NCBI RefSeq assembly: GCF_003999195.1 | Contig: NZ_RJVR01000126.1 | Coordinates: 1 to 64,000 of the forward strand | Source of the DNA: Streptomyces soli | Lineage (GTDB): Bacteria > Actinomycetota > Actinomycetes > Streptomycetales > Streptomycetaceae | Direction of reading: 5' to 3' | Length of the DNA stretch: 64,000 nt | Shown: piece by piece, positions 4,356 to 11,601 of the stretch | Layout: every line of letters begins with the position of its first letter | Numbering within the stretch: the first letter of the stretch is position 1 | Notes under the pieces: generated by a model | Seen by the model: only the letters and a program-made list of their open reading frames with translations | What the model was told of the DNA's origin: nothing | Database searches by the model: none | Made by a program: the position numbers and the translations under genes

Positions 4356-5142
4356 TCAGGCCGCCGCCCGCGCCGCCGTCGACTGCGTGAACAGCTCCCG
4401 TACGGCCTCGACGGCGCCGGCCACCATCGCCGGGTCGGCGCCGCTGCGGGCGTGGGCGCTCATCCGGATCGCCGGGACCGAGGGCAGGTCGGCACGCTCG
4501 GCGAGGCCGTCCGGGCCCTGGCCGCCGACGGTGGCGAGGACGCTCAGGGCGCGGCGGCGGATGGCGCAGGGGTCCTCAATGGCGACGAGGGGGAGCGGGG
4601 CCGGCCCGGCGGGGGCGCTCCCCCTCGGGGGCGGCGTACCAGGCGAGGGGGAGACCGCCGACCGGGATGCCCTCGGTGGCGGCGGCCTCGGTGACGTAGA
4701 CCGCGAGATCGACCGCGCCCCGGTCCACGGCCTCGACCAGCCGGGCGGAGCGGTCGATGCGGAAACGTACCCGGCAGTCGGGCAGGACCTCGCGGACGGC
4801 GGCGGTCAGGCGGGGGAGGATCTGGTCGGCGGCGTGCTCGGTGGAGCCGATGACGATGACGTCGGGGTCGCCCTCCACGCCCAGCAGGGTGCGCAGCGCC
4901 TCGTCGTGGACGGCGATGATGCGCCGGGCCTGCTCGAGCAGCAGCCGGCCCTCGGCGGTGAACCGGGTACGGCGGCCGTCGCGTTCCACGACCGGGCGGC
5001 CCAGGGTCTTCTCCAGTCGCCGCACATGCTGGCTGACCGCGGACTGGCTGAGCGCCAGCGACTCGGCGGCCCGGTGGAAGCCGCCGCGGTCAGCGACGGC
5101 GATGAGGCTGCGGAGCGCCACGATGTCGAGCACATGTGCCAT
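4356..5142 (-). pseudogene. LysR-family regulator, frameshifted and internally deleted
   Basis: From the ATG at 5142 the frame encodes a good LysR N-terminus: a winged HTH at residues 3-62 (AVADRGGFHRAAESLALSQS) and half of the effector domain (VIVIGSTEHAADQILPRL to GLPLAWYAAPEG). The frame then stops near 4576, while a second frame continues with PLPLVAIEDPCAIRRRAL and a family-like end (RADLPSVPAIRMSAHARS) to the TGA at 4356-4358. The middle section normally found between RRRALSVLA and the end is missing. It therefore carries a frameshift near 4600-4630 plus an internal deletion. It diverges from the sulfur cluster. Confidence 0.8.
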
Positions 5143-5201
5143 GGGCGAACGCTAGCACCCATCGATCAGGATTCGTGATCGGATCCGATGGTGAATCGTC
5201 G

Positions 5202-5232
5202 TTGGACGAGTGCAGCCTGCATCGGACATGCT
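5202..5232 (+). promoter_or_regulatory. candidate promoter for a leaderless leader-peptide transcript
   Basis: TTGGAC (5202-5207) and CATGCT (5227-5232) resemble -35 and -10 boxes with a 19-bp spacer, slightly longer than ideal. The leader ATG at 5239 begins 6 nt after the putative -10, which is where transcription would start, so a leaderless mRNA is plausible. This is inferred from spacing alone. Confidence 0.35.
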
Positions 5233-5238
5233 GGGGTC

Positions 5239-5376
5239 ATGTTGTTGCGAGCAGTTCCCGGGACGGCCGTCGCGCCGCGCCCCTTCGACGCCCGGCGGCG
5301 CCACGCCGCGGGCGCGCTGCTGACGCAACGCCGCGTGGTCGACTTCGGCCTCGTCAACACCATGTGTTGTCTGTGA
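5239..5376 (+). CDS. cysteine-codon leader peptide (putative attenuator ORF)
   Basis: This 45-aa ORF ends in VVDFGLVNTMCCL, with tandem Cys codons (TGT TGT) just before the stop. It lies 174 bp upstream of a sulfurtransferase/sulfonate-uptake cluster. Short ORFs with clustered Cys codons are known in mycobacteria as cysteine-responsive attenuators, and Streptomyces sulfur operons often carry an LxxRRxxDL-type leader; LTQRRVVDFGL here fits that pattern. The inferred role is that ribosomes stall at Cys-Cys when cysteine is low, changing expression downstream. An upstream in-frame ATG at 5188 exists, but the 5239 start suits a leaderless message. The 5377-5550 stretch is GC-rich and could hold the attenuator structure. 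Confidence 0.55.
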   Translation: MLLRAVPGTAVAPRPFDARRRHAAGALLTQRRVVDFGLVNTMCCL

Positions 5377-5550
5377 CCCACTGACCCGCCGCCCCCGCCG
5401 CGCTCGCGCTGAGCCCCGGGGCCCAGGCCCTTTGTGCTGCCCCGCTGCCCCCGGCTCGCCTGTGACGCCGGTCCGTGCGCGCTCGGCCTGCCTTCCCTGT
5501 CGTACACCGGCCGGCGCCGCCCTTCACATCCTCCCGAATCGAGGACCCCC

Positions 5551-6282
5551 ATGACCTACGACCAGCATGTCCACGCCTGGGACGAACCCGAGGGCCTGGC
5601 CCCGCGCGGCACCCTCATCGTGCTGCCCGGGCGCGGCGAAAACAGTGCCGTGTACGAGCGGTTCGGCCGCCGCCTCGCCTTCGACGCCTACCGGGTACGG
5701 GTCCTGGGCGACGCCACCCGAGACCCGGCCGTCCCCGGGCAGGCCGCCAAACTGCTGCTCGACGAGGCCGACCCCGGCCCCAAGGTGCTGGTCGGCTCCG
5801 ACACCGGCGCCCTGTACGCGACCGCGCTCGCCGCCCGCGAAGGCGCCCGGGTGGACGCGCTGGTCCTGGCCGGGCTGCCCACCGCCGACACGGCGCCCAG
5901 CGGCTCCGGCTGGGAGGACGAGCTCGAACTGCGCACCGCCTGCCCTACCCACCGGGGCCGGCTCACCGCCGACCCGGACTTCCTGCGCGGCGCCCTGGCC
6001 GGGCAGTTGTCCGACGTGCTGCCGGCCGCCGAGCTGGACCGGGTGGCCGTGCCCGTGCTGGGCCTGCACGGCAGCGACGACGCCGTCAGCCCCCTGGCCG
6101 GGGCCCGGCGGGCGTACAGCGGCTTCCCCGGGGTGCAGCTGATCAGCTTCGCGGGCGGGCGGCACGACGTGTTCAACGACGTGACGCACCGCACCGTCGC
6201 CGCCACGGTCGTGCTCTTCCTCGAACGGCTCCGCCTGTCGCCCGAGCTGCCCGCCATCGCCACGCCGGAGGCGACCGCATGA
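5551..6282 (+). CDS. alpha/beta-fold hydrolase of the organosulfur cluster
   Basis: 243 aa from the ATG at 5551, preceded by a GAGGAC ribosome-binding site; upstream in-frame starts are unlikely. The fold is clear: TLIVLPGRGENSAVYERF oxyanion segment, nucleophile elbow LVGSDTGALYA, acid in HGSDDAVSP, and His in GGRHDVFND. The elbow reads G-S-D-T-G, putting Asp84 at the nucleophile position as in dehalogenase- and epoxide-hydrolase-like enzymes rather than Ser. The TGA overlaps the next ATG (ATGA), so it is translationally coupled to the sulfurtransferase. Its substrate is unknown; the context suggests organosulfur use. Confidence 0.8.
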   Translation: MTYDQHVHAWDEPEGLAPRGTLIVLPGRGENSAVYERFGRRLAFDAYRVRVLGDATRDPAVPGQAAKLLLDEADPGPKVLVGSDTGALYATALAAREGARVDALVLAGLPTADTAPSGSGWEDELELRTACPTHRGRLTADPDFLRGALAGQLSDVLPAAELDRVAVPVLGLHGSDDAVSPLAGARRAYSGFPGVQLISFAGGRHDVFNDVTHRTVAATVVLFLERLRLSPELPAIATPEATA

Positions 6283-7129
6283 GTACCGCCGTCACCATCA
6301 CGCCGACCGGGCTGGACCTCGCGCTGCGCTCCGACGCGCCGCCCGTCGTCCTCGACGTACGGTGGCAGCTCGGCGACCCCAACGGGCGCGAGTACTACCG
6401 CGTCGGTCACATCCCCGGCGCCGTCTTCGCCGACCTCGACACCGAACTGGCCGCGCCCCGACCCCGGCCGGCGGCCGCCACCCCATCCCCGACGTGGCGC
6501 GGCTCCAGGAGGCCGCCCGCCGCTGGGGCATCAGCGCGGGCCGTCCGGTCGTGGTCTACGACGACAACGGCAACACCGCCGCCGCCCGCGCCTGGTGGCT
6601 GCTGCGCTGGGCGGGCGTCGAGGACGTCACCCTGCTCGACGGCGCGCTCGCCGCCTGGCAGAGCGCGGGCCTGCACCTAGCAGCCGGCGACCCGGTGCCC
6701 GCGCCGCCGCCCGGCGACATCACCCTCACGCCCGGCCGCCTCCCCGTCCTCGACGCCGACGAGGCCGCCGGCCTCGCTAGCAAGGGCCTCCTCCTCGACG
6801 CCCGCGCCGCCGAGCGCTACCGGGGCGAGACCGAGCCCGTCGACCCCCGAGCCGGCCACATCCCAGGGGCCGTCAGCGCCCCCACCGGCGACAACCTCAC
6901 CGCCGTCGGCACCTTCCTCCCGGCCGCCGAACTGCGCGCCCGCTTCGCGGAGCTCGGCGCCGACCCGGCAACCGCCGTCGGCGTCTACTGCGGCTCCGGC
7001 GTCACCGCCGCCCACCAGATCGCCGACCTCGCCATCGCCGGCATCGACGCCGCCCTCTTCCCCGGCTCCTGGTCCGCCTGGTCCGCCGACCCCGCCCGCC
7101 CCGCCGCGCTTGGCTCCCAGCCCGGCTGA
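6279..7129 (+). pseudogene. thiosulfate/3-mercaptopyruvate sulfurtransferase with one-base frameshift
   Basis: Two rhodanese domains are encoded. The N-terminal half (VVLDVRWQLGDPNGREYY, GHIPGAVFADLDTEL) is in the frame of the ATG at 6279. From GGRHPIPDVARLQEA onward the frame moves by -1 near 6453-6465, at a GCCCCG run where one extra C would restore it. The C-terminal domain carries the active-site loop VYCGSGVTAAHQ (Cys near residue 238), as in SseA-type sulfurtransferases. Total size, about 283 aa, is normal. It is either a recent pseudogene or a sequencing error. It overlaps the upstream hydrolase by 4 bp. Confidence 0.8.
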
Positions 7130-7318: not shown

Positions 7319-8206
7319 ATGTCAGTCAAGGAGTACGCCGCCCCCGGTGCGGTTCCGCCGAAACCGACGGCACAGGCCGCCGCCCCGCCCGACACCCGCC
7401 TCACCATCCGCCCCGCCCGCCGGGCCCGTCGCATCCCCCGGCTGCCCCGCGCCGTACGCCGGGCCATCGGGCCGGTCGGGCTGCTGGTCGCCTGGTACCT
7501 CGGCAGCGTGACGGGCGTCCTGCCGGAGAATGTGCTGGCCTCGCCCGTCGACGTCGTACGCCAGGCCATCGAGCTCACCTCCAGCGGCGAACTGCCCCGC
7601 GCCATCGCCGCCTCCGGGCGCCGCGCCGCCACCGGCTTCGTCATCGGAGCCGCCATCGCGCTCGCGCTGTCGCTCACCGCGGGGCTCTTCCGGCTCGGCG
7701 AGGACGTCGTCGACGCGTCGATGGGCATGTTCCGGGCGATCCCCTGGGTGGGTCTGATCCCGCTGTTCATCGTCTGGTTCGGCATCGACGAGACCCCGAA
7801 GATCGCACTGGTCGCCCTCGGCGTCACGTATCCGCTGTACTTCAACATCTACGGCGGCATCCGCTCCGCCGACTCCCAGCTCGTCGAGGCCGCCCGCATG
7901 CTGGGCCTCGGCCGGATCGCGCTCATCCGCTACGTCATCCTGCCCTCCGCCCTGCCCGGCGCGCTGGTCGGACTGCGGTACGCCCTGTCGACGGCCTGGC
8001 TGGCCCTGGTCTTCGGTGAGCAGATCAACGCCGACGCCGGTATCGGCTACCTGATGAGCAACGCCGAGCAGTACTTCCGCACCGACGTGATCGTGCTCTG
8101 CCTCGCCGTCTACGCGATCCTCGGGCTGCTCTGCGACTTCGTCGTACGGCTGCTCTCCAAGCGCCTGCTGTCCTGGCGGGCCTCCTTCGACGGCGACGGG
8201 GCGTGA
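7319..8206 (+). CDS. ssuC: sulfonate-type ABC transporter permease
   Basis: 295 aa. After a basic cytoplasmic N-terminus rich in Pro/Ala/Arg, there are about six membrane segments starting at GPVGLLVAWYLGSVTGVL. The BPD-type ABC coupling loop is SQLVEAARMLGLGRIALIRY (about residues 184-203), containing the EAA signature. The SsuC/TauC features (LASPVDVVRQAI and FRAIPWVGLIPLFIVWFG) indicate uptake of an aliphatic sulfonate or similar anion. It partners with the ATPase and lipoprotein encoded directly downstream; its TGA overlaps the ssuB GTG start. Confidence 0.9.
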   Translation: MSVKEYAAPGAVPPKPTAQAAAPPDTRLTIRPARRARRIPRLPRAVRRAIGPVGLLVAWYLGSVTGVLPENVLASPVDVVRQAIELTSSGELPRAIAASGRRAATGFVIGAAIALALSLTAGLFRLGEDVVDASMGMFRAIPWVGLIPLFIVWFGIDETPKIALVALGVTYPLYFNIYGGIRSADSQLVEAARMLGLGRIALIRYVILPSALPGALVGLRYALSTAWLALVFGEQINADAGIGYLMSNAEQYFRTDVIVLCLAVYAILGLLCDFVVRLLSKRLLSWRASFDGDGA

Positions 8207-8997
8207 ACGACGACATGAGCAGCGACGCCAGCAGCGCCAGCAGCGGCGACAAGAGTGAGACCAGCAGCGTCGACATCCGCGGGCTAAGCCGGACCTTCGA
8301 CGGCCGTACGGTCATCGACGACCTCGATCTGACCATCGCGAAGGGCGAGTTCGTCGCCCTTCTCGGCCACAGCGGCTGCGGCAAGAGCACCCTGCTGCGC
8401 ATCCTCGCCGGCCTCGACGACGAGATCAGCGGCGAGGTCATCGTCCCTGCCCGCCGGTCGGCCGCCTTCCAGTCACCCCGGCTCATGCCGTGGCTGAGGG
8501 TCTGGCGCAACGTCGTCCTCGGCCTGCCCGGGAGGGCCAACCGCGACCGTGCGCTGGCCACCCGCTACCTCGCCGAGGTCGGCATCGAGGAACGCGCCGG
8601 GGTATGGCCCAAGACGCTCTCCGGCGGCGAGGCCCAGCGCGTCTCGCTTGCCCGGGCCCTCGTACGCGAACCGGAACTGCTGCTGCTCGACGAGCCGTTC
8701 GGCGCGCTGGACGCCCTGACCCGGGTCAACGCCCAGCGACTGGTCGGCGAGCTGTGGCAGCGGCACGGCTGCTCCATCCTCCTGGTCACGCACGACGTGG
8801 AGGAGGCGCTGCTGCTCGCCGACCGCGTCCTGGTCATGGACGCCGGTGGCATCGCCCACGAGGTGACCGTCGACCTGCCCCGCCCCCGCGCCCTCGGCTC
8901 GCCCGAATTCGTCAGCCTGCGCAGCCGGTTGCTCGGCTGGCTGGGCGTCCACGACGCATCGGCCTCGGAAACACCCCTCGAAAGGATCTCGTCATGA
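8203..8997 (+). CDS. ssuB: sulfonate-type ABC transporter ATP-binding protein
   Basis: 264 aa. After an Asp/Ser-rich 25-residue leader come Walker A (GHSGCGKST, about residues 57-65), the Q-loop region (AFQSPRLMPWLRVWRN), the signature LSGGEAQRVSLARAL, Walker B (LLLLDEPFGALDAL) and the H-loop (LVTHDVEEAL). The order and the LMPWLRV wording match SsuB/TauB. The GTG at 8203 overlaps the ssuC stop (GTGA); an ATG at 8215 is the alternative start. It energises uptake through SsuC. Confidence 0.9.
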   Translation: MNDDMSSDASSASSGDKSETSSVDIRGLSRTFDGRTVIDDLDLTIAKGEFVALLGHSGCGKSTLLRILAGLDDEISGEVIVPARRSAAFQSPRLMPWLRVWRNVVLGLPGRANRDRALATRYLAEVGIEERAGVWPKTLSGGEAQRVSLARALVREPELLLLDEPFGALDALTRVNAQRLVGELWQRHGCSILLVTHDVEEALLLADRVLVMDAGGIAHEVTVDLPRPRALGSPEFVSLRSRLLGWLGVHDASASETPLERISS

Positions 8998-9971
8998 CCC
9001 GCGGACTCCGCGCCCTCCTCGCATCGCTCACCCTCGCCGCCACGGGCTTCGCCGCGACCGGCTGCGGAGGCGCGGCCGGCGCGGCATCGTCCTCCCCCCA
9101 GGTCACCCTCACCGTCGGCGACCAGGCCAAGAGCCTCCAGACGCTGCTCAACGCCTCCGGGGTCCTCAAGGGCACCTCGTACAAGGTCAAGTGGGCCGAG
9201 TTCGAGGGCGCCGCCCCGCTCTTCCAGGCCGTGCAGGCGGGCGCCGCCGACACCTCGTACGCGGCCGATCTGCCCACCCTCCAGGCGCAGAGCGGGGGCG
9301 TACCGGTCAAGGGGGTCGCGGCGCTGCACAACGACGGGTCGTCGACCGGCATCGTCGTCCAGAAGAACTCGAGCGTGAAGACAGTCAGCGACTTGAAGGG
9401 CAAGAACGTCGTCGTCTCCTCCGCCCGGGGCAGCATTGCCGAATACCTGCTCGCCAACGCCCTGCAGCAGGCCGGGCTGAAGTACTCCGACGTGCACGTG
9501 CAATACCTGCTGCCCACCCAGGCACAGGCCGCCTTCACCGCCGGCAAGATCGAGGCCTGGGCGACCTTCGGCACCTACAAGGCGGCCGTGGTCGACCAGG
9601 GCGCCCGGCAGATAGTCGACGGGACCGGCGGCCGGGTCAGTGGCTACGGCTTCATCGGCGCTGCGGACAAGGCGCTGGCCGACCAGGGCAAGAAGGCCGC
9701 GATCAAGGACTTCCTGGGGCGCTTGGACAAGGCGCTGACCTGGAGCGGCACCCACCAGGACGCGTACGCCCAGGCCATAGAGAAGGCGACCGGCGCAAAG
9801 GCGGCGGTCGCGCAGCTGATCGTCAAGCAGGGCTACGGCGAACTGGTCCCGATCACCCCGGCCGTGACCAAGACGGTCCAGAACGTGGCGGACACGATGC
9901 ACGGCATCAAGATCCTCGACCCCAACGTCAATGTCGCCGACTCCGTCGACACCAGCCTCTTCGCCAAGTAA
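8994..9971 (+). CDS. ssuA: sulfonate-type ABC transporter substrate-binding lipoprotein
   Basis: 325 aa. A type II signal peptide ends at the lipobox AATGC (Cys24), anchoring the protein outside the membrane. The mature part is an NMT1/SsuA-like periplasmic-binding fold with the usual DLPTLQAQSGGVPVKGVAAL and DLKGKNVVVSSARGSIAEYL segments. The ATG overlaps the ssuB stop (ATGA), completing a coupled C-B-A transporter unit. The ligand is inferred to be a sulfonate or other organosulfur compound from the neighbouring sulfurtransferase and flavin monooxygenase remnant. Confidence 0.9.
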   Translation: MTRGLRALLASLTLAATGFAATGCGGAAGAASSSPQVTLTVGDQAKSLQTLLNASGVLKGTSYKVKWAEFEGAAPLFQAVQAGAADTSYAADLPTLQAQSGGVPVKGVAALHNDGSSTGIVVQKNSSVKTVSDLKGKNVVVSSARGSIAEYLLANALQQAGLKYSDVHVQYLLPTQAQAAFTAGKIEAWATFGTYKAAVVDQGARQIVDGTGGRVSGYGFIGAADKALADQGKKAAIKDFLGRLDKALTWSGTHQDAYAQAIEKATGAKAAVAQLIVKQGYGELVPITPAVTKTVQNVADTMHGIKILDPNVNVADSVDTSLFAK

Positions 9972-10002
9972 CCGGCACAAGCCACGTAAGGAGCCCGCGG
10001 CC

Positions 10003-10924
10003 ATGCCCGTGGAATTCATCAGCGCCATCCACCCCAACCGCGCCAACGACGGCGAACCGATCCGCGGCCTCGGTATCGACCCCGACCACACGCGCAGGTT
10101 CGCCCGCGCGCTGGACGACGGCGGCTTCGACTACACCCTCGTCGCCTACCACTCCTCCTCGCCCGACGCCCTCCAGCTCGCCCAGTTCGTCGCCACCAAC
10201 ACCGAGCGGCTCAAGCCGATGCTCGCCCACCGCCCCGGCGTGACCTTCCCGACCCACGCCGCCCGCGCCTTCGCCACGCTCGACCGGATCAGTAAGGGCA
10301 GGCTGTCCGTCCACATCATCTCCGGCGGCAACGACGAGGAGCAGCGCCGCGAGGGCGACTACCTCTCCAAGTCCGAGCGATACGCCCGCTCGGACGAGTA
10401 CATCCAGATCCTGCGCAAGGTGTGGTCCGCGGGCGGCCCCGTCTCGCACGAGGGTGCGCACTACCGCTTCGAGGGCTTCCAGTCCCAAGTGGCGCCCTAT
10501 CAGGACACCATCCCGATCTCTGTCGGCGGCTCCTCCGAGGACGCCTACCGCGTGGGCGGACAGCAGGGCGACATCTTCGGCCTGTGGGGCGAGCCGCTGA
10601 AGGAGACCGCCGAGCAGATCGCCTCCGTCAACGCGTACGCCGACGCCGCCTGGCGCCCCCGGCCGCGTATCTGGGTCTCCTTCCGGCCGATCATCGCCCC
10701 CACGGACGAGCTTGCCTGGGAGAAGGCCCACCGCATCCTCGGACAGGTCAAGGCCAACCACGCCGAGAGCGCCAAGCACACCCACTACCCGGCCTTCGGC
10801 ACCGGCCGCCCCGCAAACGTCGGCTCCCAGCGGCTGCTGGATGTCGCCGCCCGTGGCGATCTGCACGACCGCGCGCTGTGGACCCCGCTGGCCACCGCCA
10901 CCAACGCTTCCGGCTCCACCACCG
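10003..10924 (+). pseudogene. LLM-class (SsuD-like) flavin monooxygenase, C-terminus lost
   Basis: From the ATG at 10003 the frame gives about 307 residues of a bacterial-luciferase-like monooxygenase: FISAIHPNRANDGEPIRGLG, FARALDDGGFDYTLVAYHSS, RPGVTFPTHAARAFATLD and RLSVHIISGGNDEEQRREGD, as in SsuD-type desulfonating enzymes. At about 10924 the homology stops after ATATNASGSTTA, just before the conserved C-terminal region. The following DNA is the middle of an acyl-CoA-dehydrogenase-like gene in another frame. A deletion has therefore removed this gene's 3' end. It begins 31 bp after ssuA. Confidence 0.8.
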
Positions 10925-11601
10925 CGGCGCCGAGGGCCTGGACTACTTCCTGGTCTGGGCCACCACCGACGAACCCGAGCCCCGGGTCGGCACCTTCGCC
11001 GTCCCGGGCTCCACCCCCGGCATCGAGATCACGCAGCGCTGGGACCACCTGGGCCTGCGCGCCAGCGGCAGCCACGACATCACCTTCCGCGAGGTCGAGG
11101 TGCCCGAGGACAACCTGGTCGAGATCGCCGCCCAGGGCCCCGGCGCCCAGCAGGACAACCGCGCCCTCGCCGCCCTCCACCTGCCGCTCAACGCCCTCTA
11201 CCTGGGCGTCGCCCGAGCCGCCCAGCGCTACTTCCACCGCTTCGCTCACGAACGCGTCCCCAGCAACCTCGGCCACCCCGTCGCCGAGACCGAACGCTTC
11301 CGCCGCGCCGCAGGCGAGATCGAGCTGCTCCTCGACAGCGCCGAGCAACTCGTCTTCGGCGGCGCCGAACGCGTCGACGCCGGCGACGGCTCGTACACCC
11401 CCGAACAGGCCCTCGGCACCAAGGTCCTGGCCGCCCGGCACGCCACCACGGCCGTGGAAACCGCCGTCCGGCTCCTCGGCAACCCGGGCCTGAGCCGCGC
11501 CAACCCCCTGGAGCGGCACTACCGCGACATCCAGTGCGCCCCCTCCACGCGCCCCAGGACGACATCGTCCTGCTCGCCCTCGGGAAGGCGGCCCTGGGCC
11601 G

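Follow-up and report, generated by a model that had tools for sequence, protein, structure and literature searches.

Why does a short open reading frame (ORF) ending in two cysteine codons stand directly before a set of organosulfur genes in Streptomyces soli, and might it report cysteine supply to them? Within the window, that is, the whole stretch of 64,000 nucleotides analysed, the ORF occupies positions 5239-5376 of the forward strand, from an ATG at 5239 to a TGA at 5374-5376, and its 45 codons (45 aa) encode MLLRAVPGTAVAPRPFDARRRHAAGALLTQRRVVDFGLVNTMCCL. The C-terminal end of the peptide is VNTMCCL, with TGT codons at 5365-5367 and 5368-5370 near the 3′ end, and 174 nt lie between the leader stop and the hydrolase ATG at 5551. 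The original prediction had described this ORF, its cysteine-rich end, its distance of 174 bp and a TTGGAC/CATGCT pair before the ATG, and all of these are found in the sequence at the coordinates below. Residues are numbered from the Asp (D) of the peptide core.

5170-5197, forward strand: inverted repeat GATTC-N18-GAATC, directly 5′ of the −35 element; a GAATC-like box is conserved among aligned orthologs
5202-5207, forward strand: −35 element TTGGAC, aligned in 10/10 Actinacidiphila leaders; occurs with the −10 element and an in-frame start in 61/64 leaders
5227-5232, forward strand: −10 element CATGCT, mostly CATnnT by ortholog comparison
5239-5376, forward strand: leader peptide ORF, 45 codons, with a probable leaderless start at the ATG
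5320-5346, forward strand: peptide core LTQRRVVDF (D−7 to D+1), conserved (pN/pS 0.19 in 15 representatives)
5365-5367, forward strand: first Cys codon, TGT (D+8), lineage-specific; Cys at D+8 occurs in a minority of leaders
5368-5370, forward strand: Cys codon TGT at D+9, the proposed stall codon; the Cys is invariant, and TGT is used in 64/65 orthologs and 58/60 wider-family leaders
5551-6282, forward strand: alpha/beta hydrolase, first structural gene
6279-7129, forward strand: rhodanese-type sulfurtransferase; the frame shifts near 6466
7319-8206, forward strand: SsuC-like permease
8203-8997, forward strand: SsuB-like ATPase

The leader ORF and its organosulfur locus

The genes following the leader had been read as hydrolase-sulfurtransferase-ssuCBA. 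The hydrolase, sulfurtransferase, SsuC and SsuB assignments hold; the ORF in the SsuA position (9008-9970) gave no family hit, and an alkanesulfonate-monooxygenase-like gene lies beyond it. Within the sulfurtransferase gene, a one-base difference at 6460-6470 from a relative whose hydrolase is 85% identical (L010) shifts the frame, and reflects either a sequencing error or real damage. The divergent LysR-type regulator at 4576-5142 (reverse strand) has 188 aa here versus 291 aa in A. oryziradicis (L102), which is probably another frameshift. In 9931-11493, an alkanesulfonate-monooxygenase-like N-terminus is joined out of frame to what looks like an acyl-CoA-dehydrogenase-like C-terminus, a hybrid reading attributable to either a deletion or a misassembly. 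At Rfam gathering thresholds, two tRNAs were the only matches in the window.

The promoter elements are separated by 19 nt, CATGCT is followed by the ATG after 6 nt, and the spacing of the promoter pair and the start codon is nearly unchanged across ten aligned Actinacidiphila sequences. More broadly, TTGGAC, 17-19 nt (mostly 19), [CT]AnnnT, 6-7 nt and an in-frame ATG/GTG are found in 61/64 testable leaders, as against 93/12,911 (0.7%) control windows of the same loci, where the search used looser spacing limits. Because this geometry is conserved and is consistent with the leaderless promoters of S. lividans, in which some 6 nt separate a TAnnnT −10 element from the start (PMC8079986), we infer that the transcript begins at ATG 5239 or right beside it and that the leader is translated leaderless. 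Comparative genomics favors the leaderless cysteine leader first proposed for this organosulfur operon. A sigma-70 and terminator scan gave no promoter match and no intrinsic terminator. Relatives carry TGATCGATCNCGATCA directly upstream of the −35 element, at the position of the inverted repeat, and the repeat at 5170-5197 is possibly a regulator site.

Conservation was assessed in 80 hydrolase loci from a scan of named genomes. Leaders before the same hydrolase-sulfurtransferase-ssu operon were found in Actinacidiphila, Streptomyces, some Frankia, Parafrankia and Pseudonocardia, so that the conservation across relatives expected of a genuine leader was borne out. One precedes the hydrolase in every fetched Streptomyces locus whose upstream sequence extends far enough (L146 stops at a contig edge). 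Where the motif occurs, its distance 5′ of the hydrolase is almost always 112-322 nt; a few Frankia leaders are farther away. The leaders of Actinacidiphila orthologs end in LTQRRVVDFGLVNSACCR, LTQRRVIDFGTGTSASCRCS, LTQRRVIDFGTATSARCRRG and similar sequences, and typical Streptomyces ends are LTQRRVIDFGVACSARCR or LTRRRVVDFGRTGAMRCR. Under the pattern LTxRRx[VI]D[FL], the loci of Actinoplanes, Nocardioides and several other hydrolase bearers are without a leader. All of this evidence is comparative, and since the sequences share ancestry, P-values overstate their independence, control comparisons included.

Related leaders at L031 and L061 (LTRRLHIDLLRVCSAAGPAI and LTSRRHIDLQRVCSAMGSQG) form a variant class with Gly at D+9 and Cys at D+5. 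In A. oryziradicis (L102), a second leader, LTQRRVVDFGLAGAMRCRCL, at 5490-5552 on the reverse strand, has a UGU and precedes a divergent lipoprotein/substrate-binding gene.

The peptide core and the UGU codon

The leaders share the layout LTxRRx[VI]D[FL], seven freer residues and one Cys nine codons past the Asp. The set of 65 leaders was collected by demanding this core at the protein level, a selection that inflates core conservation and cannot bias the Cys codon. In 15 representatives, pN/pS from uncorrected counts was about 0.19 for the nine core codons versus 1.11 for the next seven, and by this measure the peptide core is under purifying selection and the codons that follow it are not. 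Cys at D+9 is present in all 65 leaders. Apart from the nearest Actinacidiphila, few and distant relatives share the Cys-Cys doublet; the majority of orthologs carry one Cys at that position, to which some add another at a different point of the tail. The doublet was consequently rejected as a conserved feature, and the earlier idea that clustered cysteine codons are the working part is not supported: what is conserved is one UGU Cys.

The choice of codon is as strict as the choice of residue. TGT encodes the D+9 Cys in 64/65 leaders; the remaining one has TGC at D+9, followed directly by TGT. By comparison, TGT accounts for 10/69 (14%) of Cys codons in the corresponding hydrolase genes and for 6/47 where these leader tails have Cys at another position. 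G/C in the third position is 0.02-0.03 at the D+9 codon versus 0.74-1.00 at nearly all others, apart from an Arg codon (0.49) common to a clade of close relatives. The bases flanking the UGU differ between clades, which places the constraint on the codon itself.

The same codon recurs in a wider actinobacterial family. The NF042934 model (cis_reg_atten, cut-off 27 bits) finds five leaders above its cut-off in the source genome; the 5239-5376 ORF is not among them and shows no match to this model at E up to 10. The Ms5788A (NF042933) and Ms4527A (NF042936) models both have a cut-off of 45 bits and reach 14-15 bits, namely 14.8 bits for the C-terminal part of the leader ORF and 14.3 bits for one ortholog. 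These comparisons support a weak but colinear relationship between the leader and the mycobacterial Cys-rich leaders. As delimited here, the superfamily has the core Rx[1-2][VI]D[FL] and a Cys exactly nine residues past the Asp and few before the stop; the 5239-5376 ORF has this core and spacing, UGU at 5368-5370 and sulfur genes downstream. In place of the Cys run of polycysteine leaderless attenuators, it has CC, and most of its orthologs a single Cys.

In the source genome, the leaders over the NF042934 cut-off, together with lower-scoring hits, stand before an FMN monooxygenase, cysO-cysM (the name cysO being taken from a small MoaD-like protein adjoining cysteine synthase), an SsuA-family gene, a sulfite/nitrite-reductase-family gene, a rhodanese and a proV-like ABC gene. 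Relatives of NF042936 (the Ms4527A family) occur in 69/118 genomes of the class versus 0/14 control genomes. Across the wider set (NF042934, NF042933 and NF042936), which spans many actinobacterial families, 58/60 distinct leaders with Cys at D+9 use UGU there, versus 21 TGT and 50 TGC at the other Cys codons of their tails. An Ms5788A-like mycobacterial leader, LTKRRAVDLCRVAGCCCCCCSC, is colinear with the rhodanese leader of the source genome, LTKRRAVDLCRVAAMLCRMR; the Cys run is present in only one of the two and the UGU in both. Orthologs and wider family together have UGU at D+9 in 122/125 leaders, a pattern which suggests that the ribosome waits at a single codon when cysteine is short. 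A literature search returned no mention of either the UGU rule or the present leader, and an earlier notice in Canestrari 2020 is possible.

Proposed attenuation and the competing readings

The element is likely a cysteine-responsive leader-peptide attenuator of the organosulfur-scavenging operon. Transcription would begin at or next to ATG 5239, the leader would be translated leaderless, and scarcity of Cys-tRNA would make the ribosome wait at UGU 5368, as argued by analogy with the reported cysteine-responsive attenuators of mycobacteria. UGU is decoded by G:U wobble if tRNA-Cys has the GCA anticodon alone, and such reading by tRNA-Cys(GCA) would make the wait more sensitive. With the ribosome at this codon, LTQRRVVDF would sit 7-15 residues behind the P-site residue, inside the exit tunnel, so that the nascent chain might assist the stall. 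A wait near the leader stop would switch the operon on; when cysteine is plentiful, the ribosome would finish and leave, and the C-rich spacer and a masked Shine-Dalgarno sequence (SD) would hold the operon low. As output, Rho-type termination within the spacer and unmasking of the SD are the candidates, alone or in combination. We infer the stall, its cysteine dependence and this output step alike. One or two Cys codons are few for a classical attenuator, which counts against the attenuator reading, as do the position of the ORF below every NCBIfam leader cut-off and the fold predictions given below, and neither the alternative hairpins nor the intrinsic terminator of a classical transcription attenuator was found. 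Two features bear on the output:

5377-5550, forward strand: untranslated C-rich, G-poor spacer from leader stop to hydrolase start, of rut-like composition (C/G 1.81)
5529-5545, forward strand: predicted hairpin TCCTC-N7-GAGGA covering the hydrolase SD, from fold prediction

Rho-type transcription attenuation, an output resembling that of TnaC and compatible with the attenuator reading, has a little less than an even chance of being correct. A ribosome held at the leader end would cover the start of the C-rich spacer and block Rho, and its release would expose the spacer. The composition of the spacer, high in C and low in G, is what one would expect if Rho loads there: its C/G median is 1.93 in orthologous loci versus 1.11 in control upstream regions, C/G exceeds the 90th percentile of the own locus in 59/62 loci, and the bias is seen downstream of wider-family leaders too, in weaker form. 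The evidence from the loci themselves is one of base composition, which tells against the reading; as a precedent, Rho has been proposed for mycobacterial cys leaders (Seliverstov 2005, PMC1262725).

A second reading overlaps with the attenuator and differs in what does the sensing. Here LTxRRx[VI]D[FL] would bind the exit tunnel and arrest the ribosome at the D+9 UGU, either sensing free cysteine or another thiol or only strengthening the wait for Cys-tRNA. Arrest peptides such as TnaC and SecM use residues 7-15 from the P-site residue, the range in which the core would lie. The low pN/pS of the core reflects 169 synonymous versus 39 non-synonymous pairwise differences, and the spacing from the first Leu to the Cys is fixed at 16 residues in 125 leaders while the linker varies. 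Core conservation could also reflect another role of the peptide, and we regard arrest by the nascent peptide as a tentative proposal that we would sooner doubt than adopt.

Stalling could instead rearrange the mRNA and free the hydrolase SD, as it reportedly does in M. smegmatis. Across orthologs, predictions leave the hydrolase SD less exposed than the SDs of control genes (0.14 vs 0.31 unpaired), in keeping with the hairpin at 5529-5545. The predicted masking is, however, a local one at a distance of some 160 nt from the stall codon, and a stalled ribosome does not relieve it: with a ribosome modelled at D+9 in 45 loci, the SD did not open (0.13 to 0.12), single-strand folding being a weak test for very GC-rich RNA. 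Direct SD release is therefore not favored; we consider such translational attenuation rather unlikely, and Rho-type output ranks somewhat above it. Nor are alternative hairpins evident in 5377-5550, as the spacer folds no better than shuffled sequences (z 0.27), leader and spacer together fold in an ordinary way (z 0.98), and no stall-dependent change at the SD was seen. RNAalifold on 32 Streptomyces spacers drew a small mid-spacer hairpin and an SD hairpin from a gappy alignment, which was not used as evidence. A CUGACACGUGAC element is conserved mid-spacer in one large Streptomyces clade (L104-L147).

That the UGU is fixed for an RNA-level reason, such as a structure or a nucleotide motif, in place of decoding, is improbable. 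The sequence CAGCG-CG-CGCUG, next to the UGU in one Streptomyces clade, has the pairing for a small hairpin, but both flanks vary freely between clades and the codon alone stays fixed. A chance ORF or non-functional coding remnant, for which the shortness of the ORF and its lack of a Pfam or NCBIfam score might speak, is contradicted by the promoter, peptide and codon conserved across many genera and can be dismissed. On the comparative evidence, the 5239-5376 ORF is a real and widely conserved regulatory leader peptide.

Relation to known leaders and attenuators

The attenuator reading may extend well beyond this operon. Actinobacteria might share one nascent-peptide cysteine sensor, in which a tunnel-binding L[TV]xR[RL]x[VI]D[LF] core sets an invariant, wobble-read UGU in the A-site and which has been reused before many sulfur operons, the mycobacterial polycysteine runs being a later addition; we offer this as a conjecture that is more apt to need revision than to stand. 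Conservation of the UGU and of the core moves the question from the number of cysteine codons to why one UGU and these peptide residues are kept, in what would be a regulon comprising several sulfur operons in each genome. As current annotation models overlook the subfamily, sulfonate-use operons in Streptomycetaceae would carry an unannotated control element.

Mycobacterial Cys-rich leaders were described earlier by Shell 2015 (PMC4633059). For members of that group a role as cysteine-responsive attenuators is reported (Canestrari 2020, cited in PMC9031893 and PMC13236596), and PMC13236596 terms the mechanism translation attenuation. Ms4527A and Ms5788A resemble the present leader in being leaderless short ORFs before sulfur genes (the leaderless start being putative here), with a colinear core LxxRRx[VI]D...C and UGU at D+9. 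They differ in their Cys run and RRHVDF or RRAVDL core, as against RRVVDFG and one conserved Cys, and in the operon they precede, and the present leader scores below the cut-offs of both. The NF042934 "putative leader peptide", abundant in Streptomyces, is alike in core length, Cys position, UGU, sulfur contexts and the presence of several copies per genome; in that wider set H at D−2 and R at D+3 are nearly fixed, whereas the present leader has V at D−2 and G at D+2.

In the trp and his attenuators, too, a ribosome on the leader senses the shortage of one amino acid, but these attenuators use a run of regulatory codons and an intrinsic terminator, neither of which is seen here. The leader of the tna operon, TnaC, shares conserved tunnel residues, a stall near the leader end, a C-rich spacer and Rho as a possible output; TnaC is induced by abundant free tryptophan, whereas for the present leader cysteine scarcity is the proposed signal.
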